This document shows positions 2,925-18,796 of a DNA stretch of 22,389 nt, one piece after another. Below the pieces are notes generated by a model. That model ran no database searches. It saw only the letters and a list, made by a program, of their open reading frames with translations, and was not told where the DNA came from. The stretch is from a virus, in the IMG/VR virus record IMGVR_UViG_3300032087_001233, positions 1-22,389 of that record; one strand, written 5' to 3'. The position numbers and the translations under genes were made by a program. Numbering within the stretch: the first letter of the stretch is position 1; each line of letters opens with the position of its first letter.

Positions 2925-3610
2925 TGATTGACGTAACTCTTATAGATCACATGGGCAGTGATATCACTGTTGTTAATGCAGCACGAGTAAGCTTCGGCAA
3001 GAAGTCAAACACCACATACACAACAGACAAGGATGAGAAACTAATCTGGTATCTGGCAGATCACAAACACATGTCACCCTTCGGGCATTGCTTTGCCAGC
3101 TTTCACGTAAAAGCTCCTATCTTTGTGGCACGTCAACTTGTGAAGCATAAGTTCCTACGTTGGAATGAGATTAGCCGTAGGTATGTCGATGATGAGCCTG
3201 AGTTCTATGTGCCTGACGTATGGCGTGGACGTAGTGATGATAAGAAGCAGGGGTCTGATGGTGTCGTTGATCTTGAAGATGTCGTGTTTTTTGAAAACCA
3301 TGGAATCATTGGGCCGTTGTATCTTGGAGAAGAAATGCGAGAGCACTGGGTACGGTCAGTGAAACAATACAACCTTCTGCTTGATGTAGGGGTAGCACCA
3401 GAACAGGCTCGCATGGTACTGCCACAGTCTACCATGACTGAGTGGTACTGGTCAGGATCACTAGATGCCTTTGCTGATATGTGTAACCTGCGTTGTGCTT
3501 CTGATACACAGGCAGAGACACAAGAGGTAGCCAATCAGATCAGTGTAAAGATGCACAAACTATTTCCCGTGTCGTGGATGGCACTATGTAAAGGAAGAAA
3601 CAATGAGTAA
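2924..3610 (+). CDS. thyX: Flavin-dependent thymidylate synthase ThyX
   Basis: 228 residues, normal length for ThyX. The enzyme methylates dUMP to dTMP using methylene-tetrahydrofolate, FAD and NADPH, supplying thymidine for phage DNA. N-terminal AARVSF (about 19-24), then SPFGH (51-55), FHVKAPIFVARQ (60-71), the signature region KHKFLRWNEISRRY (74-87), LPQST (about 166-170) and NLRCAS...QAETQ near the C terminus match the family in order. The signature differs from the canonical RHRxxSxNE: both Arg are Lys and the Ser is Arg (R79). The dUMP-binding Arg of 'NLR' is kept. Start ATG shares one base with the preceding stop, and the end overlaps the next gene by eight bases. It pairs functionally with the RNR downstream. 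Confidence 0.96.
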   Translation: MIDVTLIDHMGSDITVVNAARVSFGKKSNTTYTTDKDEKLIWYLADHKHMSPFGHCFASFHVKAPIFVARQLVKHKFLRWNEISRRYVDDEPEFYVPDVWRGRSDDKKQGSDGVVDLEDVVFFENHGIIGPLYLGEEMREHWVRSVKQYNLLLDVGVAPEQARMVLPQSTMTEWYWSGSLDAFADMCNLRCASDTQAETQEVANQISVKMHKLFPVSWMALCKGRNNE

Positions 3611-3827
3611 AGATGCAGGTATCATTGGTGTCGAAACCGTAGAAGAACACGAAGACGGTGGTGCAACTTACAAGTTTCACATGGATGCACATGCTCGTGG
3701 ACTACTAGCAGAGGAAGGCTTGAAGCTTGTACTGTACTGTGCAGCCGCAAAGATGGGTATGCAGTTGGTGTATGACTTCATAGAGGATCATATCAGATAC
3801 AACAAAGATGAGGAGCAAGATGAGTAA
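3603..3827 (+). CDS. Small acidic hypothetical protein (74 aa)
   Basis: ATG 3603 has an AAAGGAAG site and overlaps the ThyX stop by eight bases. The product has a GGATYKFHMDAHARGLL segment followed by a hydrophobic helix (LKLVLYCAAAKMGMQLVYDFI) and a very acidic end (KDEEQDE). The helix is probably part of a soluble fold because His, Lys and Glu flank it closely. I recognise no family. It overlaps the exonuclease start by eight bases and belongs to the nucleotide/DNA-metabolism block. Confidence 0.7.
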   Translation: MSKDAGIIGVETVEEHEDGGATYKFHMDAHARGLLAEEGLKLVLYCAAAKMGMQLVYDFIEDHIRYNKDEEQDE

Positions 3828-4530
3828 ACAAGTTCTGATAGATGGGGATACCTTTGCTTATCGTGCAGCATTCTCCTGTGAAGACAGTGACATAGAGGAT
3901 GCAATTGATAAGGTAGATGAACTCTTAGAGGACTCTCTTAACAAGGTCATGTGGGAAGTAAGTGAAGAAGACTTCCAAGTATTCCTTACAGGTAAGGGTA
4001 ACTTCAGGTACGACATAGCCACCACTCATGAGTACAAGGGTAACAGGAAAGACGCAGAGAAACCTAAGCATCTCCAAAGTGTACGTCAACACATGATAGA
4101 GGAGTGGGGTGCTATCGTGTCAGACGGTGAAGAAGCTGATGATCTAATAGGAATCTGGTCTACTGAATATGGACCTGACTGTATCATTATCTCAGTTGAC
4201 AAGGACATGATGCAGCTACCTTGCAGACACTTCAACCCTAACCGCAAGTCTTTCTCTAAGGTATCAGAGGTAGAGGGTAACAGGTTCTTCTATTCCCAGA
4301 TACTCACAGGTGACAGGGCTGACAACATCGTAGGTCTGTACGGCATAGGTCCAAAGAAAGCTGAGAAGATACTTGAGGACTACGAAGAGGAAGCTGATAT
4401 GTATGAGGCTTGTCTGCGTAGTTACGGTGGAGAAGAAGACAGAGTAATAGAAAACGGTAAGCTTCTCTGGCTGCGTAGGTTCGAGGGTCAGATATGGGAA
4501 CCACCCAAATGCGATTCAGATCAGGGCTAG
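3820..4530 (+). CDS. 5'-3' exonuclease (FEN/PIN type, T7 gp6-like)
   Basis: 236 residues from ATG 3820, chosen because AGGAG at 3811-3815 precedes it; ATG 3808 in the same frame is less likely. It should digest duplex DNA or flaps 5' to 3' using two metals, removing RNA primers and degrading host DNA. Metal ligands appear in order: LIDGD (6-10), YKGNR (72-76), EEADD (104-108), ISVDKD (124-129) and GDRADN (164-169), followed by a helix-hairpin-helix GIGPKKA (175-181) that grips DNA. This is the classic order of the 5'-3' exonuclease family. Its last 37 bases overlap the endonuclease gene. The exonuclease/endonuclease I pair mirrors the T7 gene 6 and gene 3 functions for host DNA breakdown and recombination. 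Confidence 0.95.
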   Translation: MSKQVLIDGDTFAYRAAFSCEDSDIEDAIDKVDELLEDSLNKVMWEVSEEDFQVFLTGKGNFRYDIATTHEYKGNRKDAEKPKHLQSVRQHMIEEWGAIVSDGEEADDLIGIWSTEYGPDCIIISVDKDMMQLPCRHFNPNRKSFSKVSEVEGNRFFYSQILTGDRADNIVGLYGIGPKKAEKILEDYEEEADMYEACLRSYGGEEDRVIENGKLLWLRRFEGQIWEPPKCDSDQG

Positions 4531-4880
4531 AGGAACGCACAGCCAAGTACCTAAAGAAACTCAAGGTAAAGTTCACATACGAGAAAATAAAAATCAGATG
4601 GCAAGACCTGAGATACAGAACCTACACACCTGACTTTGTACTGGCTAACGGAATCATAGTAGAAACTAAAGGAAGATTCATCACATCTGACAGGCAGAAA
4701 CACTTGATGATAAAAGAACAACACCCTGACTTGGACATTAGATTTGTTTTCTCTAATCCTAACTCTAAGCTTTACAAAGGATCAAAGACAACATATGCTG
4801 ACTGGTGTGATAAGCATGGTTTCAAATGGGCTAAAGAAGAGATACCTCTTGAGTGGATAAAAGAAAGGAAAGGTACTTGA
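4494..4880 (+). CDS. Endonuclease I, T7 gp3-like Holliday junction resolvase
   Basis: 128 residues. T7 endonuclease I cleaves branched DNA, resolves Holliday junctions and helps degrade host DNA. FRSGLEE (8-14), YTPDF (44-48) and VETKG (56-60) give the PD-(D/E)XK catalytic set E13, D47, E57, K59, equivalent to T7 E20, D55, E65, K67. The distal part is also T7-like: RQKHLMIKEQHPDLDIRFVF, KLYKGSKTTYADWCDKHG and EWIKE. It lacks the T7 N-terminal 8-10 residues and the basic C-terminal tail. ATG 4494 has GAGGG upstream with good spacing; ATG 4509 is an alternative start that would keep all catalytic residues. It overlaps the exonuclease gene by 37 bases. Confidence 0.96.
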   Translation: MGTTQMRFRSGLEERTAKYLKKLKVKFTYEKIKIRWQDLRYRTYTPDFVLANGIIVETKGRFITSDRQKHLMIKEQHPDLDIRFVFSNPNSKLYKGSKTTYADWCDKHGFKWAKEEIPLEWIKERKGT

Positions 4881-4882
4881 CA

Positions 4883-5068
4883 ATGCTAGACGAAGAGAGT
4901 AAAATACTTGCTCTTGCTGAGAACTATGATCTACAGTTTCTTCTAGAAGAGAACGACATAAGGAATACTTTTGTCATCAAGTACCTAGTAGAAGAAGGGT
5001 TGATAGACTTAGAAGATTACTTTAATCTAGACGCAGAAATAGAAGAGTGGAGAAGACTGGAAGAATGA
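4883..5068 (+). CDS. Small acidic hypothetical protein (61 aa)
   Basis: ATG 4883 lies two bases after the endonuclease stop; the frame opens at a GTG at 4853 but that is inside the endonuclease. An AAAGG site lies upstream. The product is strongly acidic and probably all helical (EESKILALAENYDL, FLLEENDIRNTFVIKYLVEEG, DAEIEEWRRLEE). Acidic small proteins in phages can mimic DNA or act as inhibitors, but nothing specific supports that here. It overlaps the MazG-like gene by four bases (ATGA). Confidence 0.65.
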   Translation: MLDEESKILALAENYDLQFLLEENDIRNTFVIKYLVEEGLIDLEDYFNLDAEIEEWRRLEE

Positions 5069-5427
5069 TAAACGAGACAGACATAGAAGCCTTTGAATAT
5101 TACAACAGCCATGAGATGTCACTTAATGAATACCAAAGGAAAGCTAGGAGTACGGCTATCTATCCAGCTAGCTGTGCTATACTGTATCCTACCTTAGGTA
5201 TGGTAGGTGAGGCAGGTGAGGTAGCTAACAAAGTAAAGAAGATACTAAGAGACAATAAGTTTGATCGTGATGACATAGCTAAGGAACTAGGTGATGTCTT
5301 GTGGTATCTAGCTATCTTAGCTAAAGACTTAGGTTTCAATCTGTCAGACATAGCTTATGATAACTTAAAGAAACTAGAAGACAGACAGAAACGAGGCACA
5401 CTAGGGGGTTCAGGGGATAAAAGATGA
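5065..5427 (+). CDS. MazG-like nucleotide pyrophosphohydrolase
   Basis: 120 residues from ATG 5065, which overlaps the upstream TGA; a GTG at 5047 is in frame but inside the preceding gene. MazG-type enzymes hydrolyse NTPs or dNTPs to monophosphates and pyrophosphate; phage versions are thought to clean nucleotide pools or affect ppGpp signalling. The all-alpha metal-binding signature is clear: GEAGE with E49 and E52, then KELGD with E74 and D77, followed by VLWYLA. Length fits a single-domain MazG. It overlaps the RNR gene by four bases, so the two are probably co-translated in the nucleotide module. A final GGSGDKR tail is likely disordered. Confidence 0.93.
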   Translation: MINETDIEAFEYYNSHEMSLNEYQRKARSTAIYPASCAILYPTLGMVGEAGEVANKVKKILRDNKFDRDDIAKELGDVLWYLAILAKDLGFNLSDIAYDNLKKLEDRQKRGTLGGSGDKR

Positions 5428-7322
5428 ACAACTATTTACCAACAGATTACCAAGAGTTCATACACAAATCAAGGTACGCAAAGTACTTCGATGGTAAGGG
5501 ACGTGAGTCATGGGAAGACACAGTAGAACGATACATGGAGAACATTGTCTACCCTAAGTTAGGCGAGGACACATACACAAAGTCAATACGAGATGCTATC
5601 CTAAGCCTAGAGGTCATGCCATCTATGCGGTCAATGATGACAGCAGGTCCAGCCTCTAAGAGGGACAACACCTGTATGTATAACTGTAGCTACTTACCCG
5701 TAGATGACCCTAAGTCCTTCGATGAGGCTATGTTCATCTTGCTTTGTGGTACTGGTGTTGGCTTCAGTGTCGAGAGGCAGTACGTCAGTAAGCTCCCTGA
5801 AATCCCTACTCTCTTCCAAAGCGATACCACTATCGTTGTGAAGGACAGCAAGGAGGGATGGGCTAAGGCGTTCAGACAATTGTTGGCTCTCCTCTGGGCT
5901 GGTGAAATCCCTCAGTGGGATACATCTAAAGTCAGACCTGCTGGTGCTAGACTAAAGACATTCGGGGGTAGAGCCAGTGGCCCTGCACCTCTCGTTGATC
6001 TCTTCAACTTTACTATCAAGACATTTAAGGATGCTCAAGGACGCAAGCTGTCTAGCATTGAGTGTCATGACATCATGTGTAAGGTAGGTGAGATCGTAGT
6101 TGTAGGTGGTGTCAGACGGTCAGCTATGATCTCTCTGTCTAACCTGTCAGATGACCGTATGCGTCACGCTAAGTCAGGTGCTTGGTGGGAGAACAATAAG
6201 CAACGAGCCTTGGCTAACAATAGTGTGAGCTACACAGAAAAACCAGATGCTGTCTCATTCCTGAGAGAATGGATGGCCTTAGTAGAATCAGGAAGTGGAG
6301 AACGAGGAGTATTCAATCGTGAAGCATCTAAGAAACAAGCTGAGAAGTATGGCAGACGTGATCCTGACTATGACTTCGGAACTAATCCTTGCTCAGAGAT
6401 TATCCTACGCCCATATCAGTTCTGTAATCTCACTGAAGTTGTGGTCAGGGCTACGGACACTATCGACGATCTTGAGCGAAAGGTACGTATTGCAACAGTT
6501 CTGGGAACAATTCAATCTGTCTACACCCACTTCCCATATCTGCGAAAGGTGTGGCAGCGAAACACAGAAGAAGAACGTCTGCTTGGTGTGTCACTCACAG
6601 GGATAATGGATAACCCACTACTAACGAGTAAGAATCATGGTCTACCAAAAACTCTTGCGCACCTTAGACAGGTTGCAGTTGATACTAATACTGACGTCAG
6701 CAATAAGCTTGGTGTTAATCCTAGCGTTGCTATTACGTGTGTCAAACCATCAGGAACAGTCTCGCAACTCGTTGACAGTGCCTCAGGAATACATGCACGG
6801 TATTCGAATTATTACATTAGAACCGTTAGAGCCGATAACAAAGACCCCCTTACCGCCTTCATGAAGGACATGGGTATACCTAACGAACCAGATGTAATGA
6901 AGCCAACTAACACTACTGTCTTCTCGTTCCCTATCAAGTCACCAGATGGTGCAGTTGTTACCTCTGACCTGACAGCAATAGAACAACTAGAGACTTGGCT
7001 CACCTATCAGAGACACTGGTGTGAACACAAACCATCTGTCACTATCAATGTCAGACCTGATGAGTGGTTCGAGGTAGGAGCCTTCGTGCATAAACACTTC
7101 GATGAGATGTCAGGTGTGTCATTTTTGCCATACAATGAGCATACTTATCAGCAAGCACCTTATCAAGAGATTGGCAAGAGTGACTATAATATGCTATTAT
7201 CTGTCATGCCAGACAAGATTGATTGGAGTAAGCTGTCTGAGTATGAGAAGGAAGACAACACTGTAGCTATGCAAACGATGGCTTGCTCTGGTGATGTGTG
7301 TGAAATCGTAGACTTAACATAA
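5424..7322 (+). CDS. nrdJ: Class II (adenosylcobalamin-dependent) ribonucleotide reductase, monomeric type
   Basis: 632 residues. Reduces ribonucleotides to deoxyribonucleotides with a cobalamin-generated thiyl radical, so it works with or without oxygen but needs host vitamin B12. Sequence follows the Lactobacillus-type monomeric enzyme: NCSY with C88, GTGVGF (109-114), NPCSE with radical-site C323 and E325, C334 eleven residues later, KPSGT (441-445), and a C-terminal redox pair C621 and C626. C88/C334 correspond to the active-site disulfide, C323 to the thiyl cysteine and C621/C626 to the shuttle pair, with the spacings expected from the Lactobacillus enzyme (119/419, 408, 731/736). Somewhat shorter than cellular homologues (over 700 residues). 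It starts inside the MazG-like stop codon. With ThyX it forms the dNTP-supply pathway. Confidence 0.97.
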   Translation: MNNYLPTDYQEFIHKSRYAKYFDGKGRESWEDTVERYMENIVYPKLGEDTYTKSIRDAILSLEVMPSMRSMMTAGPASKRDNTCMYNCSYLPVDDPKSFDEAMFILLCGTGVGFSVERQYVSKLPEIPTLFQSDTTIVVKDSKEGWAKAFRQLLALLWAGEIPQWDTSKVRPAGARLKTFGGRASGPAPLVDLFNFTIKTFKDAQGRKLSSIECHDIMCKVGEIVVVGGVRRSAMISLSNLSDDRMRHAKSGAWWENNKQRALANNSVSYTEKPDAVSFLREWMALVESGSGERGVFNREASKKQAEKYGRRDPDYDFGTNPCSEIILRPYQFCNLTEVVVRATDTIDDLERKVRIATVLGTIQSVYTHFPYLRKVWQRNTEEERLLGVSLTGIMDNPLLTSKNHGLPKTLAHLRQVAVDTNTDVSNKLGVNPSVAITCVKPSGTVSQLVDSASGIHARYSNYYIRTVRADNKDPLTAFMKDMGIPNEPDVMKPTNTTVFSFPIKSPDGAVVTSDLTAIEQLETWLTYQRHWCEHKPSVTINVRPDEWFEVGAFVHKHFDEMSGVSFLPYNEHTYQQAPYQEIGKSDYNMLLSVMPDKIDWSKLSEYEKEDNTVAMQTMACSGDVCEIVDLT

Positions 7323-7333
7323 AGGAAAGTATC

Positions 7334-7453
7334 ATGTGTCTAATAGAAATGTTTGTTGTAACTTTGGTATCACTTGGTGTACTAGAGGATGTAGTCGTAC
7401 CTGTTGCTGAGACAACATGGGAGACCGTACAGGAAGTTGTGAATGCCGACTAA
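7334..7453 (+). CDS. Short hydrophobic peptide (39 aa)
   Basis: ATG 7334 follows the RNR stop by eleven bases and has an AAAGGAAAG site directly upstream. The peptide runs MCLIEMFVVTLVSLGVLEDV then an acidic tail ending VQEVVNAD. The first ~20 residues could form a membrane helix, though a Glu at position 5 and few positive charges weaken that. It overlaps the next gene by 11 bases. No family recognised; evidence is the ribosome site, tight packing and open frame. Confidence 0.5.
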   Translation: MCLIEMFVVTLVSLGVLEDVVVPVAETTWETVQEVVNAD

Positions 7454-7886
7454 AAGAAAGTTTAACAAAGAAGCTTATGATCTGTACGATCAGACAGCTA
7501 AGGATAAACTGGTGACCCTTCTCTCTGAGAGGGGCCACACCATTATCTCCTCAGATGAAGACTACTTCGTAGACGTAGTATCACAGAAGGATGGGTATAC
7601 ATACTACAGTGAGGCTGAGGTGAAGACAGCATGGACTGATAGCTGGCCTACCACTTGGAAGGAGATCAGGATTCCAGAGAGAAAGAAAAGACTTCTAGCT
7701 AAATATCAAGAGGAGAAGGGTGTCTTAAACTTCTATGTCTTCAGTAAAGACCTGAAGCAAGTATGGAGAATCAAGGACACACAGTTAACTGAAGAGGGTT
7801 TGAGAGAAGCTAAAGGTAGATACATCCACGCAGGTGAGAAGTTCTTTCATATCCCTTATACAGAAGCGGAGTTAATTAATGTCTGA
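7443..7886 (+). CDS. Hypothetical protein, possible PD-(D/E)XK nuclease fold (147 aa)
   Basis: ATG 7443 overlaps the preceding peptide gene. The N-terminal region is basic (MPTKRKFNKEAYDLYDQTAKDKL). A stretch DEDYFVDVVSQKDG...YYSEAEVKTAW (about residues 38-63) has an Asp in a beta-strand-like context followed about 15 residues later by ExK, the layout of PD-(D/E)XK nucleases. Then come a Trp-rich loop (TDSWPTTWKEIRIPERKK) and a second beta-rich part (LNFYVFSKDLKQVWRI). A nuclease role would suit the neighbours, but this is inference from a motif pattern. It overlaps the DUF3310 gene by eight bases. A stable hairpin is encoded at 7512-7538. Confidence 0.8.
   Translation: MPTKRKFNKEAYDLYDQTAKDKLVTLLSERGHTIISSDEDYFVDVVSQKDGYTYYSEAEVKTAWTDSWPTTWKEIRIPERKKRLLAKYQEEKGVLNFYVFSKDLKQVWRIKDTQLTEEGLREAKGRYIHAGEKFFHIPYTEAELINV
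7512..7538 (+). other. Intragenic RNA hairpin (8-bp perfect inner stem)
   Basis: Bases 7516-7523 (CCCTTCTC) pair with 7527-7534 (GAGAGGGG) around TCT, with one T-G pair. Beyond a single A/C mismatch the stem continues for three pairs (7512-7514 with 7536-7538). It lies about 70 bases into a coding gene and has no T-run after it. Confidence 0.4.
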
Positions 7887-8100
7887 CATAATAAATAACC
7901 CACCTCACTATGGAGATGGGTCTATTGAGTGTATAGAGTACATGAAAGACAACATGGACTTTATGATGTTCATGGGATACCTAGAGGGTAACACTAAGAA
8001 ATACCTTCACCGATACAGATACAAAGGAAAACCTTTAGAGGACTTGAAGAAAGCACAATGGTACCTTAACAGATTAGTAGAAGAGATGGAGGCTAAATGA
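7879..8100 (+). CDS. DUF3310 family protein (T7 gp1.7-like nucleotide kinase domain)
   Basis: 73 residues. NPPHY (7-11), SIECIEYM (15-22), GYLEGNTKKYLHRYRYKG (33-50) and LKKAQWYLNRL form the near-complete DUF3310 signature: H-Y, I-E-C-I, G-N-x-x-K-Y, R-Y and A-x-W-Y-L. The domain occurs in T7 gp1.7, reported to be a dGMP/dTMP kinase, and in many tailed phages as a stand-alone protein. A nucleotide-kinase or nucleotide-binding role fits the ThyX/RNR/MazG context, but biochemical function cannot be read from sequence alone. GGAG at 7867-7870 precedes the ATG, which overlaps the upstream gene by eight bases. Confidence 0.92.
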   Translation: MSDIINNPPHYGDGSIECIEYMKDNMDFMMFMGYLEGNTKKYLHRYRYKGKPLEDLKKAQWYLNRLVEEMEAK

Positions 8101-8101
8101 T

Positions 8102-8332
8102 ATGGAGACTATGTTTGTAGCACTGGCAGTTGCCTGTGGGTTAATCGAAGGTGACCCGTTACTTAACCAAGGGTGTGGAATTATCTTTCAAAGACGTTTA
8201 GTTTCTACTGAAGAGGAGTGCATAAAGGATGCTGCCTTAATGGTAGCTGTCATGCCACCCCCTGCTGGTGCTTACATAACAGATGTCCAATGTGTTCCTG
8301 TTAAGGTAAACCCTAGGAAAAATAAAACCTAA
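8102..8332 (+). CDS. Small Cys-containing protein, possibly exported (76 aa); last gene of + arm
   Basis: ATG 8102 has GGAGG about ten bases upstream; ATG 8111 is an alternative. The N terminus METMFVALAVACGLIEG is hydrophobic and could be a weak export signal. Cysteines (CGL, GCGI, EECI, VQCVPV) are spaced like disulfide-bonded periplasmic proteins. The C terminus is basic (NPRKNKT). It is the last rightward gene; its TAA (8330-8332) overlaps the stop of the convergent gene. Family not recognised. Confidence 0.65.
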   Translation: METMFVALAVACGLIEGDPLLNQGCGIIFQRRLVSTEEECIKDAALMVAVMPPPAGAYITDVQCVPVKVNPRKNKT

Positions 8333-9781: not shown

Positions 9782-10017
9782 TTCTTACATGACCAATATC
9801 TAGCTGTGAACTTATCTGTGGCTGTGTCACAATTGTGTCTAGCTCTGAAGCTCTTGCGTCTGGCTGGTATGTTCTTCTTGATCTTCATATTGGCATCACC
9901 AAAGCGAATGATCTTCTCTTTGCCATCCTTACAAGCTTTGACAACAAACTTCTTACCACCTGAAACCTGACGCTTCGGGCTGTTACACTTCATCTTTGAT
10001 TTGTCTATCTTAGCCAC
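9775..10017 (-). CDS. Small basic conserved phage protein (80 aa, GTG start)
   Basis: The start is placed at GTG 10017, preceded by GGAAG with correct spacing and giving MAKIDKSKMKCNSPKR; the frame extends to a TTG at 10029, and ATG 9993 lacks a clear ribosome site. Motifs are MKCNSPKR, FVVKACKDGKEKIIRFGD, ARRKSFRARHNCDTA and a terminal ARYWSCKKW. The 'VVKAC..GKEKIIRFGxxxxxxxxxxxARRKSFxARH' layout is widespread in marine phages (a DUF6321-like type, from memory); function unknown. Cys and His residues could bind zinc. It overlaps the lipoprotein gene by eight bases. Confidence 0.85.
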   Translation of the reverse strand: MAKIDKSKMKCNSPKRQVSGGKKFVVKACKDGKEKIIRFGDANMKIKKNIPARRKSFRARHNCDTATDKFTARYWSCKKW

Positions 10018-10366
10018 GGTATCTTCCAAATGTTATAGTTTTAAGGAACCCTTTCCATATCTCTATGGGAGATGGTAGCATCCACCCTAGGACCAGCAAG
10101 AGTATAACCCACATAGGGATGTCTTGGTTCAAGACCTTGACACTATCTACTGAACCAGCCAGATTGAATGAACCTTTGGACTCGTCTACCTGTACGTTCT
10201 CAGCTTCGATGTCTCTGCTTTGGTCTATAGCTGACTGGTTATTCTCTTTGCCTACTTGAGTGTTTGCGTTAACGGTAGGTCCACCACCACCACCCCCAAG
10301 GAGAGACATAGGATTGAGACAACCACTGAGTGTTAAAGTTAACGCTAGGATTAATAAAAGTCTCAT
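10010..10366 (-). CDS. Lipoprotein with C-terminal membrane segment, candidate unimolecular spanin (118 aa)
   Basis: The N terminus MRLLLILALTLTLSGCLNP is a lipoprotein signal with lipobox LSGC (C16). After a Gly run comes a polar region with VNANTQVGKENNQSA, then a hydrophobic segment at about 84-99 (IPMWVILLLVLGWMLP) and a basic C terminus (KGFLKTITFGRYRG). A lipid-anchored N terminus in the outer membrane plus a C-terminal inner-membrane segment is the architecture of u-spanins (as in phage T1), which fuse the two membranes in the last lysis step. The periplasmic part is short for this role (about 65 residues), so another envelope function remains possible. It overlaps its neighbours on both sides (ATGA upstream). 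Confidence 0.88.
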   Translation of the reverse strand: MRLLLILALTLTLSGCLNPMSLLGGGGGGPTVNANTQVGKENNQSAIDQSRDIEAENVQVDESKGSFNLAGSVDSVKVLNQDIPMWVILLLVLGWMLPSPIEIWKGFLKTITFGRYRG

Positions 10367-11184
10367 GGAAGTTTACCCAGATTTATAACCAATTCAGTCT
10401 CAGAGGGTTTACCTTCTTCTTTTAACTTCTCTTGCCTAGCATAAGCTATGATACTAGCTAGTTCAACGGGGTCAGAGATACTTTCAAATAAAGTATTTAA
10501 TGCGCCTGACGTGTCACCCTTCTTTATTTGATTATAAAAGGTTGTTCGTTTTTTTCCTTTGTTAAAATTATATGTATTCTTAATAACAGTATTACCCTCT
10601 TCATCCGTATAAAAATTTAAACCGCCGACAGTTCTAGCCATACGTAAGTCGGGATTAAGAAGACCTGACCAAACACTTTCTTTTAAAACTTCTGTCTCAG
10701 ACGTGCCAAAATCAGGATAATCTAAAGAATTTCTACCTTCCTTTTTTGCTTTAATTACAGCCTGTCTTAAAGTTTCTAAATCAGTTGCGTTAAGATTTTC
10801 TTCTGTGAGTGTTTCACCTGCATTAAAAAGATTGTTGTAGAAGAACCTAAACTCACTTGTTCCAAAATCAGGAATGTCCTCAAGTATTTCTAAAGATTTT
10901 TGACCAGCTTCATCTGCTGTTTTAAATACAAAATCTAAAGGGTCAGGTATATTTTTAGCAACTTCAATTATATCTTCGGATTCAGGAAGTAAATCATAGG
11001 CACTCTCAGCTACATCTGCTACATAACTACCCCCTGTAGCTAGAGCACTTGCCGCTTCATCTAAAACCGTTTCTAAAAAAGATTTACCTTCCTCTTGTGA
11101 AGGCTGCTTTTCCCTGATTACATTAGTTTTTACAGGCTGATCTGTTTGCCCAACTAATGTTCCTTTGTTCCAACTGCTAGCCAT
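10363..11184 (-). CDS. Late-arm protein with 'WNKGTLV' N-terminal peptide (273 aa)
   Basis: Opens MASSWNKGTLVGQTDQ, almost the same as the start of the next gene upstream (MASPWNKGTLVES). Then a charged linker, a helical region (about 33-100), two copies of PDFGTSE (105-111 and 157-163), and a C-terminal beta-rich part with ARTVGGLNFYTDEEGN and NTYNFNKG (about 182-210), ending in a helical tail. No enzyme motif recognised. Position directly after the lysozyme-like gene in the internal-protein block, and the shared N terminus, suggest a virion or ejected protein (inference). Codons are AT-rich compared with the tail genes. Its TGA overlaps the following ATG. Confidence 0.85.
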   Translation of the reverse strand: MASSWNKGTLVGQTDQPVKTNVIREKQPSQEEGKSFLETVLDEAASALATGGSYVADVAESAYDLLPESEDIIEVAKNIPDPLDFVFKTADEAGQKSLEILEDIPDFGTSEFRFFYNNLFNAGETLTEENLNATDLETLRQAVIKAKKEGRNSLDYPDFGTSETEVLKESVWSGLLNPDLRMARTVGGLNFYTDEEGNTVIKNTYNFNKGKKRTTFYNQIKKGDTSGALNTLFESISDPVELASIIAYARQEKLKEEGKPSETELVINLGKLP

Positions 11185-11185
11185 C

Positions 11186-11746
11186 TTATTGAATCTCAGC
11201 TATTACTTTATCAAGAGTGGAGTTGTTAATATAATTAAAACCCTCCCATACTTTACGAAGGTTTGTACGTTTAGCTGCTTGTGTCTTACCTCGATTCACA
11301 GCATCACGGGCCAAGAAAAGAAAGATGTCATCTTGTGTTTTCTTATCAAATACTGTGTCGTCACTTAAACCCATTTGTTTGGCTGCACTGCGTAAGGTAG
11401 TACCTACAATCTGATATTTACCCATAGGTGTAGAAGTGAGACCCCTCTTAAATGCTTGAGTATTTTTAGCTAGACGAGGTTTGACATACTGTCCGTATGC
11501 ACCAGAAGGTTGAGAGAAATCGTATAGCTCTCCAAGTGTCATTGTAGAAACTTGAACACCTTTGAATGGTGTTTCTTTTGTTTCAAAGTTACCGTACAGA
11601 GTATCATAACCTTGTGCTTCTACTTTTTTTAACGCTACTTGTGTAGTTGAAGTAGGTTGTAAGCTAGGCTCTACTGACGGCTGTTCTTGTTTAACTTCCT
11701 GAGTATCAGATTCAACTAGAGTACCTTTGTTCCACGGACTAGCCAT
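11186..11746 (-). CDS. Lysozyme / transglycosylase-like protein, probably virion-associated (186 aa)
   Basis: Start at ATG 11746 (MASPWNKGTLV), seven bases after the upstream stop; a longer frame to 11839 would overlap the previous gene and begin with an unrelated hydrophobic stretch. Residues 1-40 are a polar Gln/Ser/Thr/Pro linker. The catalytic-looking domain (45-170) has GYDTLYGNFE, TLGELYDF (70-77), the lysozyme-superfamily signature TPMGKYQIVGTTLRSAA (106-122), and TVFDKKTQDDIFLFLARD (131-148). GxYQ followed by a T/W...L helix is typical of phage muramidases and lytic transglycosylases; E55 or E73 could be the catalytic acid. It likely cuts peptidoglycan during DNA entry, as the N-terminal domain of T7 gp16 does, or acts as endolysin. 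Which one cannot be decided here. Confidence 0.88.
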   Translation of the reverse strand: MASPWNKGTLVESDTQEVKQEQPSVEPSLQPTSTTQVALKKVEAQGYDTLYGNFETKETPFKGVQVSTMTLGELYDFSQPSGAYGQYVKPRLAKNTQAFKRGLTSTPMGKYQIVGTTLRSAAKQMGLSDDTVFDKKTQDDIFLFLARDAVNRGKTQAAKRTNLRKVWEGFNYINNSTLDKVIAEIQ

Positions 11747-11753
11747 ATCAATT

Positions 11754-13763
11754 TTATTTCCTATATAGTTGGTTATCAGAAGGATCAATAAAATAGGCAC
11801 CAGAAGGTAGAGAATTGTACTGGCTTTCATGTGTTTCACTATCTCCTGTAAATAGGTACGGATTACTGCTGCTACCTAATCTACTTAGTGCTTCCGTAGA
11901 TACACCTTGGGTATCAGATGTATCTGGGGCTGTTACAGCAGTCAAAGCTTCTTGTTCTATTTGCTCTACTTCAGTCATCTCAACAGGAGCACCTAATCTA
12001 CGTAAGAGTTTATCGTACTTGGTGACACTTGACATAAGCCTGTCAGCTTTTCTAACTGCTTCATTTATTCGAGCAAAGTCAAGACTTGTTCCTTTGAACT
12101 CACGTTTTAGTTCCATAGGAATCTTACGGCCTAAGTCTCTATACATTTCCATGAGGTCGTTGTTATAGTAGGTGCTGGCTAAGTCTTTTACTTTAAAAAG
12201 AACTTTCTCACCTGTTGGATAAGCAGTAGAAATAGCCTCTTCATTTATCATAACTTGACCTTGGTCACCTACAGTCAGGAATTTATTTTCAGGGTCTTTG
12301 AGAGCACCATAAACTGCTGTAGACTGGGCTGTTTTCTGGAATCGTAACGCATTTGCTATACGTTCTTTAGTTACCAAGTACGCATCATTATCGTACTGCT
12401 TGAGCTTCCTTAGTTTATTAAAGGTATCCTCTGAGAATATCTTAGCTATAGTTGCATCATCCATAATGTTTGGTGATGTTATCATATTGACAGAGATTAT
12501 CTCTAAGCCTCTGATAAAGTTTTCCCTAGCGAAATCTTCAGCCATTGAGTCAGGTGTAAGTAGAGATACCTGATTGAGATAGGCAAAGTCTATAGCTTCT
12601 TTACGGTCTTTAGGTGTTCTCTTCTCTGCTGCTGTAATAGATTCCTGAGTGTGTAGAACATCTGTCGGCGTGACTACAGCTTCTTTTACGTTCTGGTTGA
12701 CCTGTTCAGCTAACTCAGGGAAGACAGGAAGAGGGGTAAACTCTATGTTCTGGGGTAAGATTTCTTTAGATAATTTTATTTGTTCTGGAAGATACCTATT
12801 CATCCAAGTATCAGATACCTTATCTAAGTTACTAAGAATAGCAAAGGCTGCTGCTGGGTCTTCCATAGTCGCAGCTTGTAAGGCTATAGCTTTTGCTATT
12901 GGTGTGATAATACCCGCCTTTATTTTTTTTAACTCTTCTTGGTCATAAGACTCAAGACTTTTTATAATATTTTCAGCATTATCAATTTTTCTTTGTATAA
13001 CTTGCCAGTTATCGTCAGTAACCATAGGTGGTTTTTTTATAGTTGCTTTAAGACTTTCAAACTTACCCCTAAGTTGTTGGATACTTTGAGGAGAGACATT
13101 ACCTCCTGCAATTTCAATATCCATTCCCATAAGACCTAGCTCTATTATATTATCCAAAGCTGGTTCTACTTGAGGTACGTAAGAGTTTAAAAACTTTTGG
13201 TTATTTATATTCTTAGAATTAGCTACGAACAAAGCTGCTGCTTCGTTTACTTGTACTTGACCCATAGCTTCTATAAGAACATCCCGTTCTGTGTAGGGTT
13301 TGCCTGTAGCAGCTAGAGCTTGTTCTGCAAGAACGAGGTAAGCTGGGTTCTCTGCTATCTTCTTACTGACTAAGTTTAAGGCTTCTTGCTGAGGGTATAC
13401 ATTAAGGTAAGCAACATCAATACCTGTCTGCATCTTGATAAGTTTAGATGCGTTAGCATCAATTTCAAAACCTTGGGCTGAGTACTCAGATATAAGAGAG
13501 TTAACAGAAGACCTGAGGGTAAGACCTTCCTGTCCTTTTAATTCTTGTAGGCGTTTAGCAAAGCTTCCGTACATCTCACGGTCAATAGAGGCTTGTGTCT
13601 TCTGTTTACCAGAGGACACCATGCTATCCATGACACTGAAGAGACCTCTGCCTATACCCTCTATCGCTTGGGCAGATGCACCTAGCTCAGTTGCACTAGG
13701 CATTGTGACACCTTGTGCGTATTGAGCACCAGCCTCACCTAAATCCATTGCATATCCAGCCAT
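11754..13763 (-). CDS. Internal virion protein, gp15-like by position and size (669 aa)
   Basis: ATG 13763 has an AAGGA site. The N terminus (MAGYAMDLGEAGAQYAQG, then ELGASAQAIEGIGRGL) resembles the start of phage internal/ejection proteins. Most of the chain is predicted helical with charged repeats and no enzyme motif. The C terminus ends LPSGAYFIDPSDNQLYRK, a 'LPSGxxYxxPxGxxxRK' peptide common at the end of internal virion proteins. T7 gp15 is 747 residues, so size is comparable. In the virion it would sit in the inner core and form part of the channel ejected into the cell envelope. Here the gene follows the large ejection-protein gene rather than preceding it as in T7. Confidence 0.85.
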   Translation of the reverse strand: MAGYAMDLGEAGAQYAQGVTMPSATELGASAQAIEGIGRGLFSVMDSMVSSGKQKTQASIDREMYGSFAKRLQELKGQEGLTLRSSVNSLISEYSAQGFEIDANASKLIKMQTGIDVAYLNVYPQQEALNLVSKKIAENPAYLVLAEQALAATGKPYTERDVLIEAMGQVQVNEAAALFVANSKNINNQKFLNSYVPQVEPALDNIIELGLMGMDIEIAGGNVSPQSIQQLRGKFESLKATIKKPPMVTDDNWQVIQRKIDNAENIIKSLESYDQEELKKIKAGIITPIAKAIALQAATMEDPAAAFAILSNLDKVSDTWMNRYLPEQIKLSKEILPQNIEFTPLPVFPELAEQVNQNVKEAVVTPTDVLHTQESITAAEKRTPKDRKEAIDFAYLNQVSLLTPDSMAEDFARENFIRGLEIISVNMITSPNIMDDATIAKIFSEDTFNKLRKLKQYDNDAYLVTKERIANALRFQKTAQSTAVYGALKDPENKFLTVGDQGQVMINEEAISTAYPTGEKVLFKVKDLASTYYNNDLMEMYRDLGRKIPMELKREFKGTSLDFARINEAVRKADRLMSSVTKYDKLLRRLGAPVEMTEVEQIEQEALTAVTAPDTSDTQGVSTEALSRLGSSSNPYLFTGDSETHESQYNSLPSGAYFIDPSDNQLYRK

Positions 13764-13772
13764 AGTTTTTCC

Positions 13773-16700
13773 TTAATACATTTGTAACTGAAGAAGGCCA
13801 GCATTATAGCCTAAACCTAGTTTGTGGGAGTCTCTCATTACGTCAGCTAATTGACCTGCGTTCACAAGACTATTCTGAAGAGATATTTTTAACTCGTTAG
13901 ACAAAGGCATAGCCCATAGTTCATCATTGATTTCTTCCCAAAGTTTAGAGCCTCTTAAGAAGTCCTCTTGGTCACCTTCTCTTAACAGGGCCATAGCTCT
14001 ATCAGCCTTGGACTTTAATCTGGTTCTTATCTCACGGTACTTTTCGTTCTTCTTGAAGACCATCTCTTGATAATCGTAGTAGTTCTGCACAGGGGCAGGG
14101 GTAGCACCCATAAGTACAGCAGCAGCATCTCTAGTTGTCAAACCACCAACTACTAACCTACGTGTACGGCTACGATAGTTACCAGTTTCTATAAGTTCCC
14201 TGATCTTTACGATCTTGTCAACAGTAGACAAGTTACGAACCACTTGTGTCAAGTCCTCTCGTACCATTTCAGTACGTCCACCAAACATTGACCTGATAGC
14301 ATTGACACCAGCAGAGGAGAAGTCTTCTGCAATCTCACCTGATGGACCGAATAGAGTGGTGATCAGGCTTTCATCGAAGAGCTTACGATAGGTATCTGTG
14401 ACCTGACCTAGAGGTGCGGCCCTTTGTGCATACGCTGTTTCAGTACCTAGACCCCAACCTAGAAGCTGATCAAATAATCCGTACTTGATCATGTTGTGCA
14501 TCTCTACAGCCTGAGGATCATCTGAGGAATAGCCTAATTTCTCTGTGACATACCCTGCTGTACGGCCTATACCAAGCCCTGTCAAACCCCACATTGGCCC
14601 CATAACTAGAGCCATACGTGCTCTCTCCCCAGCAGTAAAGTTACGTCCTACAACTATGTTCTCCATAGCTCTGAGAGAGAAGGTTAACCACTGAGTAGGT
14701 ACTCTCATCGGGCCTGACTGAGCAAAACTTCTGGATGCTGAAGTCATACGGAAGGTTAGGTCTTGCTCTCTGTTGGTAATCCAAGTCTTACCTGAGGGAG
14801 ACAGAGGATCAATGTCAGGACGCTTGGCTCTGTGCTCAAGGAATGCTGTAATAATCCCTGTCATACGAGAGAAACGTTCACCTTCTCTAAAGAAAACGGT
14901 TGAGGTATCTAAGAATTTTCCAACTGATGCTTGAGCTTTGCCCGTAAGAGTGCTAGCCGCACCAAACTTTTGAGGAGCTTGGAGTTCGATAACTTGGTTG
15001 TCAATTATATTCCTCCCGCTTTCATCTATGTATCTGACAAGAGTATTCAACTCGTCCTCAGTTAAGCCAGACATCTTAGCTAAACGCTTAACTGCTGTCT
15101 GTCTAGCGGCACCTTTAGAGTTTGCTATGATCAACATAGGTGTTGTAAGACCTAGTGCTTTAAATCCATGAGTAGGAGAAATGCCTATCAAAGGAGCACC
15201 TATGGTAAGACTATGCAAACCCTGAAGCATAAACTGGTCTGGGTTAAAGAAACCAAACTTAGAGTAGAAGCCAACTTTCAGTAGTTGAGAGGAAGGATCA
15301 GTAGCAGCCAAGTCCCACTTGAATCCTGTCTTCTCAAAGACATACTCAGTAGCTGACCTTGTGAAGGATTCCCACTTATCTGACAACCAAGTAGGTTGAT
15401 TGAGCCTACGCTTGATGACATCTTGTGTCTCACGTAGTTGTGCAGCTACATCATTAAACTTACCTGTCTTGGTAACCTCAGCTTCCAAAAGTCTACCCAA
15501 GAAATCATTCTTAGGGAGAGCACTAACTCTATCCCAATTCCTGATTAGTCCTTGGTTAGCTTCTGCTAGTTTATTCCAGCCAACTAAAGCATTCTGTGAG
15601 GCTGCACGATTAGCATAACCAAAAGCTTCAGTACCAAACTGGTCAGCGATAGCTGATATTGGGTTAGCATTTGTAGCTGACTTACCGCCAAACTCAATGA
15701 GAGGTGTGTCACCCCGTTTCATGCCAAGGTTATTCATCTTGACACTTACGTCTTCACCTACTGACAAACCAAAGCGAGTAGGATCACCACCAGCATCACT
15801 TATGGAAATCTTCTCATCCCTAGCTTTAGCTACGAACTCTTCTGTGAAGTTAAACTTGTGAGTTTGGGCTAGCCTCTGTAAGTCTTCTAGGTCAGTGACA
15901 TGTTTATTCCATGTGTTGTTAGCTCTGATAACATCACCTAGCTCATCATACTCAGCTTTGCTTAGGCTAAGTAATGCGATGTCATCAATACCATTCTGGT
16001 CTAGGAGTTTCTTAACTGCACGACTTATATTATTTAACTGAGTTCTAGCTAATACTATCTGATCCTTGCCAAAAGAACCTAGTAGAGTTTTGAAACCTAT
16101 AGATATTTGTTTACCTGAGGCAAGCCTTTGCTCCTTAGCAGTACCTAAGAACCAACGGAACTCAGAGTTAGTACGAGGACCACCGATATTGTACGGCATG
16201 ATGTCTACTCGTTCTAAAACTCTGACACTCTTAGGGTTGACAAAGTATAGATGGTCCATGAATGTCTCAGGAACCTTGTAGACTATCTGGTCACCCTTGA
16301 GTTTATCCTTGCGGATTGGCCTTAGTGTAGCTAGATCAAGAATAAACTCATCGTCTATCTGGCTCTGAGCTACCTTGTAGGCTACATTGCCAAACTCATC
16401 GGTCATCTCAAGGAAGACACCATCAGCAGCCACGGCTCTCTTCAATCTCTCAGAAGATTTAATCTGCCAAGTTGTATCTAGGATGTCGATAAGAGCCTCA
16501 TAGCCTTCCGTAGTAGCTTTGCTGGGGGCAGACCCGTACATAGTTTTGTACATGGCCTCAAAGCTAGCTACAGAAGGAGCCTGACGCATATGTGATAGCT
16601 CACCATCACGTAGTTGCGTCATGAAATCTGACAGGTTTTCTAGTTCTTTGCCTTTAACCTTGTTTATTTTCTTTTGGTATGGCTTTACGAGGTCACCTAT

Positions 16701-18236
16701 GAGAGCCTGACCAGACTCAGCCTGTAAGAACTTAGCACCTAGCTTGTCACCTAGGCGAACAGTAGCTGCACCAAAGACTTTATTGATAGCATCTCTGATA
16801 AAGTCTGACTTCTGTACTATCTGCATAGCCTCAGGTAAATCAGAGATGTCTAATCTTTTCTCTGTCTCTAGGTACCAACCACGTCCCTCTTCCCTTTTGA
16901 CCACCCTTAGTGTAGGGTCGTTCTTAGCTATAGCCTCTGCGTCCATCTTACGTCTGAAAAAACCACCTGTCTTATCTTTACCCATACGAACTACGATCTT
17001 GTAGTCATCTGAGCCTTCATCAATTACAGACAAAGGTTTGACAGAACGAGTAAGAGCTACGTTGTTTGTTTTTCTAGCTATACTCTCTGCTGTTCTAAGG
17101 GCTAAGGCGTCGATACTGGCTCTAGGTACATACTCACCAAAGGTGCCTCTTCGGTTAGCTAGCTCTAACTCTTCTGTGAGCCTAGTCTTTATTGTGTGGT
17201 CTCTCACTGTGGCACTTGATGGACGAGCATTTGGCCCAGAAACAGGGTCTAGTTCTTCTGGTAGTGTACGCCCAGCGTTGATCTCATCTGTCTGAGCACC
17301 TACATCATCCACTAGCCTTGCTGATACACTTGCTGCCTCTACCTCATCACCTAGTGTAGCTATCACATCAACAGGTCTTTTAGCCTTAGTGATACCTAAA
17401 ACCTTGCCTGTTTGTCTAGCCAAGGCAGTAGCTGGTTTTGTTACAAGTCTTGTTGACCCAAGCGTAGCTATGTCAGCAACACCAAACAACGCATAGACAC
17501 CAGACATAGGGTCATCCCCTAGGTAGGTTGCATCATTAGCTGTCTTGTACAAGTTCCAGATACTATCTGAACTAAAGATACCTTCCTCTTTACGTTCCTC
17601 TATGTACTCTAAAGCCCACTTCTCGAACTCTTCAGGTTTCATCTGGTTAAATGCAGCCCTGATAGTATCGCCTTCACGGTTAGACCTAAGGGTTACGTTC
17701 TCAAATGCACCGATAGTAATCTCTCTGAGAATATTGACATCGAAGAAACTGAGTACTTTACCTATGCCACTCTGGTCATTCTCTTCGATGGCCTGTTGCA
17801 TCAACCTGTTCCATGTTTCCATGTTAGTTAGGGTTCTAGCTGCATAAGGGTTTATGTCACCATCGGAGAGCATAAGGTGTTGAACCAACATGTACTCACT
17901 AAGAGACATGTCTTCACCCTTTTCCTTACGTTCTTCGATAATAGCTGCTATAGTCTCAGGTGGTAGACCATCCTGATAGGCTTGATTGATAGCTAAGGCG
18001 TAGTCAAAGTTGAGACTTTCGTTCTTAGCTATAACCTCTGAGCTATCGTCACCTACCTCACGTTCAGCCTCTATCTGGTCTACAGGTAAATCTGTAGCGA
18101 TAGAAATCTCTTGAGCCTTAGTCCTTTCGACTTGGCTCCTAGAGTTGTAAGGTTTACTGATCTGAGGACCAATGAGAGATTCCTTGAGGATTTGCTCATT
18201 GATTATCTGATCATTAAGAGTAAGAAGGGATGTCAT
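13773..18236 (-). CDS. Large internal virion / ejection protein, gp16-like (1487 aa)
   Basis: By far the longest gene. T7 gp16 (1318 residues) forms the DNA-ejection channel in the inner membrane; this protein has similar size, position after the gp14-like gene, and a mostly helical charged sequence. Hydrophobic or glycine-rich segments near residues 989-1040 (FYSKFGFFNPDQF, GLTTPMLIIANS) and 1205-1230 (LVMGPMWGLTGLGIGRTAGY) could insert into membrane. The N terminus (MTSLLTLNDQIINEQILKES) shows no lysozyme domain, unlike T7 gp16; a separate gene two places downstream has it. The ribosome site upstream of 18236 is weak (GTGGA), and the 32-base gap before the gene is the largest in this arm. 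Assignment to the gp16 role is by context and composition. Confidence 0.88.
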   Translation of the reverse strand: MTSLLTLNDQIINEQILKESLIGPQISKPYNSRSQVERTKAQEISIATDLPVDQIEAEREVGDDSSEVIAKNESLNFDYALAINQAYQDGLPPETIAAIIEERKEKGEDMSLSEYMLVQHLMLSDGDINPYAARTLTNMETWNRLMQQAIEENDQSGIGKVLSFFDVNILREITIGAFENVTLRSNREGDTIRAAFNQMKPEEFEKWALEYIEERKEEGIFSSDSIWNLYKTANDATYLGDDPMSGVYALFGVADIATLGSTRLVTKPATALARQTGKVLGITKAKRPVDVIATLGDEVEAASVSARLVDDVGAQTDEINAGRTLPEELDPVSGPNARPSSATVRDHTIKTRLTEELELANRRGTFGEYVPRASIDALALRTAESIARKTNNVALTRSVKPLSVIDEGSDDYKIVVRMGKDKTGGFFRRKMDAEAIAKNDPTLRVVKREEGRGWYLETEKRLDISDLPEAMQIVQKSDFIRDAINKVFGAATVRLGDKLGAKFLQAESGQALIGDLVKPYQKKINKVKGKELENLSDFMTQLRDGELSHMRQAPSVASFEAMYKTMYGSAPSKATTEGYEALIDILDTTWQIKSSERLKRAVAADGVFLEMTDEFGNVAYKVAQSQIDDEFILDLATLRPIRKDKLKGDQIVYKVPETFMDHLYFVNPKSVRVLERVDIMPYNIGGPRTNSEFRWFLGTAKEQRLASGKQISIGFKTLLGSFGKDQIVLARTQLNNISRAVKKLLDQNGIDDIALLSLSKAEYDELGDVIRANNTWNKHVTDLEDLQRLAQTHKFNFTEEFVAKARDEKISISDAGGDPTRFGLSVGEDVSVKMNNLGMKRGDTPLIEFGGKSATNANPISAIADQFGTEAFGYANRAASQNALVGWNKLAEANQGLIRNWDRVSALPKNDFLGRLLEAEVTKTGKFNDVAAQLRETQDVIKRRLNQPTWLSDKWESFTRSATEYVFEKTGFKWDLAATDPSSQLLKVGFYSKFGFFNPDQFMLQGLHSLTIGAPLIGISPTHGFKALGLTTPMLIIANSKGAARQTAVKRLAKMSGLTEDELNTLVRYIDESGRNIIDNQVIELQAPQKFGAASTLTGKAQASVGKFLDTSTVFFREGERFSRMTGIITAFLEHRAKRPDIDPLSPSGKTWITNREQDLTFRMTSASRSFAQSGPMRVPTQWLTFSLRAMENIVVGRNFTAGERARMALVMGPMWGLTGLGIGRTAGYVTEKLGYSSDDPQAVEMHNMIKYGLFDQLLGWGLGTETAYAQRAAPLGQVTDTYRKLFDESLITTLFGPSGEIAEDFSSAGVNAIRSMFGGRTEMVREDLTQVVRNLSTVDKIVKIRELIETGNYRSRTRRLVVGGLTTRDAAAVLMGATPAPVQNYYDYQEMVFKKNEKYREIRTRLKSKADRAMALLREGDQEDFLRGSKLWEEINDELWAMPLSNELKISLQNSLVNAGQLADVMRDSHKLGLGYNAGLLQLQMY

Positions 18237-18268: not shown

Positions 18269-18796
18269 TTACGTAGGAGAGTCTGGAGGTACACTAGAAA
18301 GATTACCTAGACCACTAATAGCATTAGCCAAGGTAAAGCCTACGCCAGCCCTTGCAGAAAACATTTGAGATAGACCACCTAGATAAGAGGCTTGGCCTGA
18401 TAGGCTTGTGTACTGAGAACCTAGACCTGACATCATGCTGCTAAACCCTAGGTTAGCCCCTAGTTGGGAAGTAAGAGAAGACATACCACCTAAGTAACCA
18501 GAAGAACCTAGTTGTCGTTGGGCTGCTGCTACTGCCCTTGATCTACTTCTAGCGATGATACTTTGTCTTACAGCACTGCGTCTGGCTCTAGAGGCTTCTT
18601 CTCTTTGCATTCTAACTTGAGTTTCTGCTGCTTGTCTCTGTATCTGGGCAGATTCTCTAGCTGCACTTGCTGCCCTTTGTGACTGCTGGACACCATAAGC
18701 AGTAGCCCCAACTGCTGCTGTTGTAGCAACACCTGCTGCTGTTACACCAGCAACACCTGCTGCTGTTAGGCCCGTTGCTATAGCTGTAAAGATCAT
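18269..18796 (-). CDS. Internal virion protein, gp14-like (175 aa)
   Basis: ATG 18796 has an AAAGGAAAT site. The N terminus is an Ala/Gly/Thr-rich hydrophobic segment (about 5-33: TAIATGLTAAGVAGVTAAGV...), able to span a membrane. It is followed by a Gln/Arg/Ala coiled coil (about 38-95), then a Ser/Gly/Leu-rich C-terminal half (LGGMSSLTSQLGANLGFSSM). This three-part layout is typical of T7 gp14-type internal proteins, which are ejected into the outer membrane to begin the DNA channel. It lies between the GNAT-like gene and the large ejection-protein gene, the expected position. Confidence 0.9.
   Translation of the reverse strand: MIFTAIATGLTAAGVAGVTAAGVATTAAVGATAYGVQQSQRAASAARESAQIQRQAAETQVRMQREEASRARRSAVRQSIIARSRSRAVAAAQRQLGSSGYLGGMSSLTSQLGANLGFSSMMSGLGSQYTSLSGQASYLGGLSQMFSARAGVGFTLANAISGLGNLSSVPPDSPT

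Follow-up and report, generated by a model that had tools for sequence, protein, structure and literature searches.

Why do the products of two adjacent, otherwise unrelated phage genes begin with almost the same peptide? The question arises from the window, by which we mean the whole stretch of viral DNA analyzed here (22,389 nucleotides), whose minus strand encodes P1 (positions 10363 to 11184; 273 aa, start MASSWNKGTLVGQTD) next to P2 (short form at positions 11186 to 11746; 186 aa counted from Met 11746, start MASPWNKGTLVESDT). P1 begins MASSWNKGTLV (positions 11152 to 11184) and short P2 begins MASPWNKGTLV (positions 11714 to 11746), an identity of 10 in the first 11 residues. Both peptides are exactly as written in an earlier note on this DNA, which read them as a portable tag that might direct packaging into the virion core or binding to a common partner. 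Our comparison of sequences suggests that the peptide serves as the same address label for a cell-wall-cutting enzyme and its partner, bringing both to one place.

Genomic context of the tagged genes

Judged by its genes, the window is a fragment of a cobavirus-type podophage with relatives in the Zobellviridae, Cobavirinae. Its virion and lysis region is syntenic with that of the Cobavirinae (Siovirus/Veravirus group), and the internal virion proteins are homologous. The minus-strand order is a homologue of internal virion protein B (175 aa, positions 18269 to 18796), a homologue of internal virion protein D (1487 aa, positions 13773 to 18236), P3 (669 aa, positions 11754 to 13763), P2, P1, and, as the next gene downstream of P1, a spanin homologue (118 aa, positions 10010 to 10366). 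P3 is a large helical protein with 33.6% identity to its ICBM2 counterpart over 99% of its length and 30.1% to that of CRP-5 over 98%.

The plus strand of this otherwise cobavirus-type genome carries a tyrosine recombinase at positions 1503 to 2603 (Phage_integrase, E 1.5e-18) and, at positions 39 to 671, a protein matching Pfam GP88 (E 2.9e-10). The part of the published cobavirus account available to us states that these phages have no functionally annotated gene pointing to a temperate life style (PMC6775973).

The tag is shared by P2 and P1 and changes class in both

The earlier note had also described the linkers behind the tag as similar and the remainder of the two proteins as unrelated, and our results agree. 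Both linkers are polar, residues 1 to 67 of P1 are predicted to be disordered (pLDDT under 50), and past the tag P2 and P1 are equally similar in paired and unpaired combinations (residues 21 to 60, 19.9 paired versus 19.1 unpaired; residues 61 to 160, 33.6 versus 34.5; 20 loci). Over the first 14 residues, the similarity was 47.2 in paired versus 26.9 in unpaired combinations, with 0 of 20,000 permutations as high; this test used 20 of 27 pairs, with the near-duplicates L016, L040, L048, L043, L046, L038, and L041 omitted (relatives are given by our L and G handles where they have to be told apart).

The tags of the relatives fall into three main classes, S-x-W-N-[KT]-G-x-[LV], D-[FY]-S-x-[QR]-A, and N-F-W-[DE]-K-D. 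The class was identical in P2 and P1 in 27/27 relatives that carry both genes side by side, with DFS and DYS tags scored as one class, D[FY]S, and both agreement and switches counted as D[FY]S versus the rest. This count omits the duplicates L019, L022, L028, L033, L035, L042, L045, L049, and L051, SIO1 itself (L003; tags as in L004), L039 (no readable P1), and L052 to L055 (a different neighbor); L056 to L096, which are more remote relatives of P2 and lack the cobavirus arrangement, do not enter it. Tag class changed four times on the P2-core tree and five times on the P3-body tree, each time in both genes, with one of the four and all five of these switches, respectively, on well-supported branches (sign test, p 0.0625 for the five). 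When similarity of both protein cores was removed, the partial correlation between P2 tag and P1 tag was 0.85 (0 of 2,000 permutations; 23 loci), and tag similarity did not follow the P1 core (rho −0.06). The agreement is not equally strong everywhere: the pairs of L004, L036, L034, and L050 have only two to five degenerate residues in common, the ICBM1-type and L036 pairs share little beyond S-x-W-N, and the true partner ranked only 11th and 10th of 20 for L004 and L036.

The peptide appears to be held at the protein level. In the window pair, the same codon is used at 4/8 identical residues for which there is a choice of codon, where independent draws would give 3.5; the peptide was thus kept while its DNA drifted. 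Other pairs have drifted as well, such as L034 (0/5) and L031 (2/9). Over all 27 loci, with related rows counted separately, the same codon is used at 105/185 identical degenerate positions compared to 79 expected, an excess that indicates some recent copying, as in L047 (9/10), L048 (7/8), and L026 (6/7), with strong codon identity also in L038 and L041. Mere recent duplication without effect, which the earlier note had named as a refuting case, is not supported: in many pairs, that of the window among them, codon sharing is no higher than expected, even though L047, L048, and L026 look recently copied.

Tag-class patterns scanned across 18 genomes or fragments revealed the tag at the start of P2 and P1 and of no third protein; the few other pattern matches were in other proteins or frames. 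A sweep of IMG/VR for MA[ST]xxWNKG-type starts returned 12 stretches, of which 9 were P1/P2-type genes and 3 (L099, L105, and L106) were not. Some relatives have a single enzyme and no P1, namely, P12053L, CRP-5, ICBM2, and the L006 and L011 types. Two tag-like copies stand in one chain in CRP-5 (ANFWDNDEVV...ANFWDKDEVI) and in the L011 type (NFAKYGKI...FFGKYGKI), and the enzyme has a tag-like start in the P1-less P12053L (MGKDYLDQ), ICBM2 (MSDFNGRA), and L006 (MASFIQKA). In L053-type loci, P2 has a different neighbor of 1208 aa with no clear match to the tag.

The idea of a portable tag is thus upheld in that the peptide is common to unrelated proteins, switches in both between phages, and stands before several types of enzyme. 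We regard it as highly likely that the tag is real and under selection.

P2 has a second, upstream start

The lysozyme-like domain of P2 begins at about residue 43 of the short form and matches PHROG 14527 (E 1.3e-18) and PHROG 90, "endolysin" (E 2.2e-10); P2 had no Pfam match. A feature absent from the earlier note is that the P2 frame stays open upstream of the tag Met (positions 11747 to 11839, minus strand), with an ATG at 11830 and a GTG at 11839, both inside P3. The ATG adds a 5' extension of 28 codons (positions 11747 to 11830; upstream stretch caggagatagtgaaacac), giving a long form of 214 aa, and the extension overlaps P3 by 77 nt in another frame. It is signal-anchor-like: a hydrophobic segment, ASTILYLLVPILLILLITNYIGN, precedes the tag and is rich in Leu and Ile, with a 15-residue mean hydropathy of 3.01.

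The extension is a general feature of these loci. Among 26 loci, the frame was open for at least 25 codons in 25, an ATG was present in 24, and in 23 the hydropathy over 15 residues was at least 1.8 as well, compared to about 1.8/26 expected under synonymous recoding of P3; the expected value is a sum of per-locus fractions, and the comparison is not a probability because the loci are related. The exceptions are the L050 type, which has no extension, and L006, which has no ATG. The upstream start is kept across relatives with unrelated enzymes. The domain behind the front end is SLT (transglycosylase) in CRP-5, Phage_lysozyme in L011, Amidase_2 in ICBM2, and, below the curated cut-off, CHAP in L006; the P12053L and L034 enzymes have a peptidoglycan-binding domain.

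Each of the two in-frame starts has a ribosome-binding site. Mean predicted ribosome-binding (SD) energies were −6.3 kcal/mol for the long start (27 loci; if a locus offered a choice of ATGs, the better was taken), −4.7 kcal/mol for the short start, and −6.3 kcal/mol for P1, compared to a mean of −1.85 kcal/mol over 380 internal ATGs of P3. The tag Met, for its part, is kept in every cobavirus type examined despite the differing enzymes. Given these energies and this conservation, both P2 starts look used. A dual start under selection is very likely, and we infer that both products are made, a step beyond what the sequence itself displays. The databases are divided between the two forms: the SIO1 record gives the long form, and the ICBM1 and CRP-5 records give the short one. 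A loose, self-made lipobox pattern matched 12/27 extensions, the window's not among them.

The cobavirus endolysins SIO1 gp24 and ICBM1 gene 36, which are direct homologues of P2, are described as free of membrane anchors in the available part of the cobavirus account, which mentions neither the 5' extension nor the shared tag (PMC6775973). The long form resembles SAR endolysins, such as R21 of phage 21 and gp61 of N4, in having an N-terminal membrane-type segment on a muralytic enzyme. In the portion of the source available to us, the SAR segment is described as weakly hydrophobic and rich in Gly and Ala (N4 gp61; PMC12642591), whereas that of long P2 is strongly hydrophobic and rich in Leu and Ile, and the second P2 start gives the enzyme without the segment. 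By hydropathy, the long form is thus not a typical SAR endolysin.

P1 combines the tag with an exchangeable C-terminal domain

In P1, the tag is followed by the disordered linker, a helical spacer, and a confidently predicted C-terminal domain (residues about 110 to 270) with the motif N-x-Y-N-F-N and a conserved end, INLGKL. P1 of the window had no Pfam match, PDB sequences gave weak matches to helical bundles and proteasome subunits, none better than E 0.026, and a PDB fold search gave nothing under E 1. Exchange of the C-terminal domain does not follow that of the tag, as seen in the window and L020, which are alike for about the first 70 residues and not beyond.

A conserved strand motif at residues 203 to 208, [DN]-x-[YF]-[DN]-[YFW]-N (NTYNFN in the window), recalls the start of the colicin M active site, DKYDFN, although we do not claim homology. 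The fold rows included PaeM and syringacin M, weakly, at Z 3.6 to 4.5 over 152 to 163 residues (rmsd 4.9 to 5.3). The colicin M family was absent from the Pfam matches of 24 P1 members and from the PDB-sequence matches, and in place of the colicin M motif DxYD(x5)HR the window has NTYNFNKGKKR and its relatives have DxYDFN or DxYDWN without HR. We make no claim of a resemblance to colicin M-like bacteriocins.

The P3 tail as a candidate receptor

We consider it likely that P2 and P1 dock at one shared site. Identity between ICBM1 (WN tag) and P12053L (DYS tag) is about 95 to 99% for portal, capsid, scaffold, tubes, and protein D, and since their tags differ, these proteins are unlikely to be class-specific receptors. 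The N-terminus of protein B does differ between the two phages, with that of P12053L resembling G002, and SIO1 is uninformative here; no clear pattern with tag class emerged across 16 sequences. In SIO1 (L110, about 32831 to 33265), the N-terminus of the protein B homologue is short and divergent relative to ICBM1, perhaps through a sequencing error in an old record.

P3 behaves differently at its C-terminus. Between ICBM1 and P12053L, identity in P3 is mostly 92 to 100% (72 to 84% in places) and then drops to 45 to 50% over the last ~70 residues; the tail is kept in pairs of the same class (96 to 100% for ICBM1 and L040; 84 to 96% for P12053L and G002), and P3 of the window shows the same tail pattern against L006 and against L016. 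In L037 and L038, the P3 bodies and the stretch from 75 to 32 residues before the end are dissimilar and the last 32 residues are nearly identical, which puts one possible start of the exchanged block close to the long P2 start codon. The P3 tail and the P2 front end have thus been exchanged together; DNA profiles of single pairs displayed no sharp edge of exchange. P3 is also mosaic farther in: the window and L006 are 35 to 65% identical inside alignment columns 161 to 280, 87 to 100% before them, and 82 to 100% after them until the tail.

With the enzyme core and P3 body removed, the tag correlated with the P3 tail (partial correlation 0.38, 0/2000) and with the stretch just before it (0.30, 2/2000). 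The tag hardly followed the P3 body (partial correlation 0.12, 130/2000), which we rejected as the receptor. One residue of the tail separates the classes: the position before a conserved Pro (D660 in the window, codon at positions 11784 to 11786, minus strand) is D in 16/16 loci with other tags and N in 8/8 with D[FY]S, among the 24 loci bearing the motif (L020 and L024 have no P3 in the contig, and L026 has no such motif). A codon change from D660 to N would be silent in the overlapping P2 frame of the window (Leu, TTG/TTA). In the structural model of P3, residues 596 to 629 are disordered and are followed by a short piece at a pLDDT of about 76 to 84, a predicted small folded piece; a fold search with P3 gave no convincing match, mostly helical-repeat rows.

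The best candidate for the tag receptor is thus the C-terminal ~35 residues of P3 (NPYLFTG...LPSGAYFIDPSDNQLYRK; positions 11757 to 11861, minus strand), a tentative assignment on these comparisons, given that the tail shares DNA with the P2 extension and the two are inherited together, which may make the correlation one of linkage. Of the two roles that the earlier note had offered for the tag, the common partner is the better supported, with a candidate that adjoins the interval it had described.

A proposed route into the particle

Packaging into the virion core, the other proposed role, is plausible on indirect grounds, namely, a virion homologue, the position of the genes by those of internal virion proteins, and domain fusions. 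A homologue of the P2 domain is encoded by EE36phi1 orf58 (gp58), adjoining the virion RNA polymerase gene, and the parts of the report available to us list its RPP1/RLP1 homologue, gp63, among proteins found by mass spectrometry in virions of N4-like roseophages and mark it in Table 4 as possibly similar to SIO1 gp24 (PMC4193335), which is a homologue of P2. In two of the 15 proteins searched, the P1 domain is fused to a lysozyme domain, following it in L059 (profile E 5.1e-20) and preceding it in L056 (E 1.6e-15). Given the homologous domain in virions and these fusions, P1 and P2 plausibly act at one place. The literature searched, as far as it was accessible, yielded no virion proteomics for cobaviruses. 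We put the chance that the particle is the destination of the tagged proteins at about even.

We propose the following model, to which we assign a probability of roughly 0.5 as a whole. A short, selected address tag would stand at the N-termini of two cooperating proteins. Initiation at the upstream ATG would produce a membrane-targeted long P2 that is exported to the periplasm for host lysis, and initiation at Met 11746 would produce a cytoplasmic short P2 with the tag at its very N-terminus, the same tag that P1 carries. The tags of P1 and short P2 would bind one shared partner in the ejection-protein assembly, for which the last ~35 residues of P3 are the most likely candidate; both the enzyme and P1 would in this way enter the particle and be delivered with the DNA. 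Several observations stand against this model. The protein that supplies the virion evidence is a homologue with neither a visible tag nor a detected P1 domain, and the tag of the long form would sit in the periplasm. There are also the relatives without P1, the weak pairs, the L053-type neighbor, and the L050 type without an extension.

A narrower version is possible but more doubtful than the assignment of the receptor itself. The last ~35 codons of P3 might form a genetically locked cassette that specifies the tag receptor in one frame and the export signal for the enzyme bearing the tag in another, with tag, receptor, and partner swapped together. One enzyme would then have two addresses set by start codon, the periplasm for lysis and the particle for entry, and the D or N of P3, matched to non-acidic tags or to tags of the acidic D[FY]S class, would make a contact that sets specificity; the difference would be silent in the overlapping frame of the window.

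Alternative explanations

The alternative that survives best, although we consider it unlikely, is that like binds like, with the tags associating mutually or with a surface shared by P1 and P2 in a complex that has no third partner. The restriction of the tag to P2 and P1, the joint switching of both copies, the two copies in some single enzymes, the domain fusions, and the lack of a tag-class difference in the major virion proteins of ICBM1 and P12053L would all fit. However, a pairing tag would not need to be kept at the enzyme start where P1 is missing (P12053L, ICBM2, and L006), the P3 tail tracks tag class, and the tag is short and predicted to be disordered in P1.

It is less likely again that the tag serves lysis, with P1 as a cytoplasmic or membrane regulator of the endolysin and the tag linking both proteins to a holin or spanin. 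The homologous lysozyme domain lies in the virions of N4-like roseophages according to the available data (PMC4193335), no family match ties P1 to lysis regulation, and no holin was identified as a tag partner; these points are set against the neighboring spanin gene, the treatment of P2 as an endolysin in the accessible part of the published account (PMC6775973), and the export-like segment of the long form. We give similarly little credence to a single block of P3 tail, P2, and P1 that moves by recombination and would alone explain both the P3-tail correlation and the joint switching, the tag's partner being a host factor such as one for export or assembly. Such a block would account for ICBM1 and P12053L, which differ in hosts and tags and have nearly identical virion proteins, and its left edge falls within the last tens of P3 codons, but the independent exchange of P1 C-terminal domains (window versus L020) and the failure of tag similarity to follow the P1 core argue against it. 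That the tag has no function, the 5' end of one gene having been copied to the other and the likeness being renewed by further copying or kept because the DNA serves recombination or the start of translation, is very improbable, given that the codon excess over the 27 loci and the strong identity in L047, L048, L026, L038, and L041 are countered by the drifted codons of the window, L034, and L031, by joint class switches in distant lineages, and by the end of similarity after the tag.

Comparison with known systems

N-terminal cargo tags have already been described in T4 and in phage P1. According to the available portions of the two reports, the T4 capsid targeting sequence (CTS) is a short peptide at the N-termini of otherwise diverse internal proteins that directs them to the scaffold core and can take foreign proteins along (PMC3012670), and in DarB of phage P1 more than 9 and fewer than 30 N-terminal residues suffice to bring a reporter into the capsid (PMC9024508). 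Our tag resembles the CTS in being short, conserved, and N-terminal and in being shared by proteins that are unrelated elsewhere (here in 27/27 pairs), and we used the likeness as a working comparison, with no claim of CTS membership. It differs in that there are two adjacent genes only, several classes that switch together, and an export-like segment before the tag at the second start. DarB also has an N-terminal packaging signal but is one very large protein, for which the part of the report available to us describes neither a paired copy nor class switching. RPP1 gp63 and EE36phi1 gp58 contain a lysozyme domain that is a homologue of P2, with about 41% identity, but, unlike P2, are single proteins of 672 aa in which no tag was seen and the P1 profile found no P1 domain.

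If the model is correct, a tag pair that switches together, with natural variants matched to a candidate receptor, would open cargo choice in small podoviruses to direct tests, and a single gene that supplies enzyme both for export in lysis and for the particle would call for a revision of the published picture of cobavirus lysis. Missed upstream starts would be worth seeking in other phage endolysins.

Two proteins outside the paired arrangement have repeated motifs at their N-termini. The 1208-aa protein in the place of P1 in L053 (positions 4511 to 8137) opens with a TYEEFMxRT-like motif that occurs twice and may resemble the T4 capsid targeting peptide. The P1-lysozyme fusion of L056 (positions 1948 to 3831) begins with SFDPFARD and SYDPFSFV, possibly another duplicated tag.
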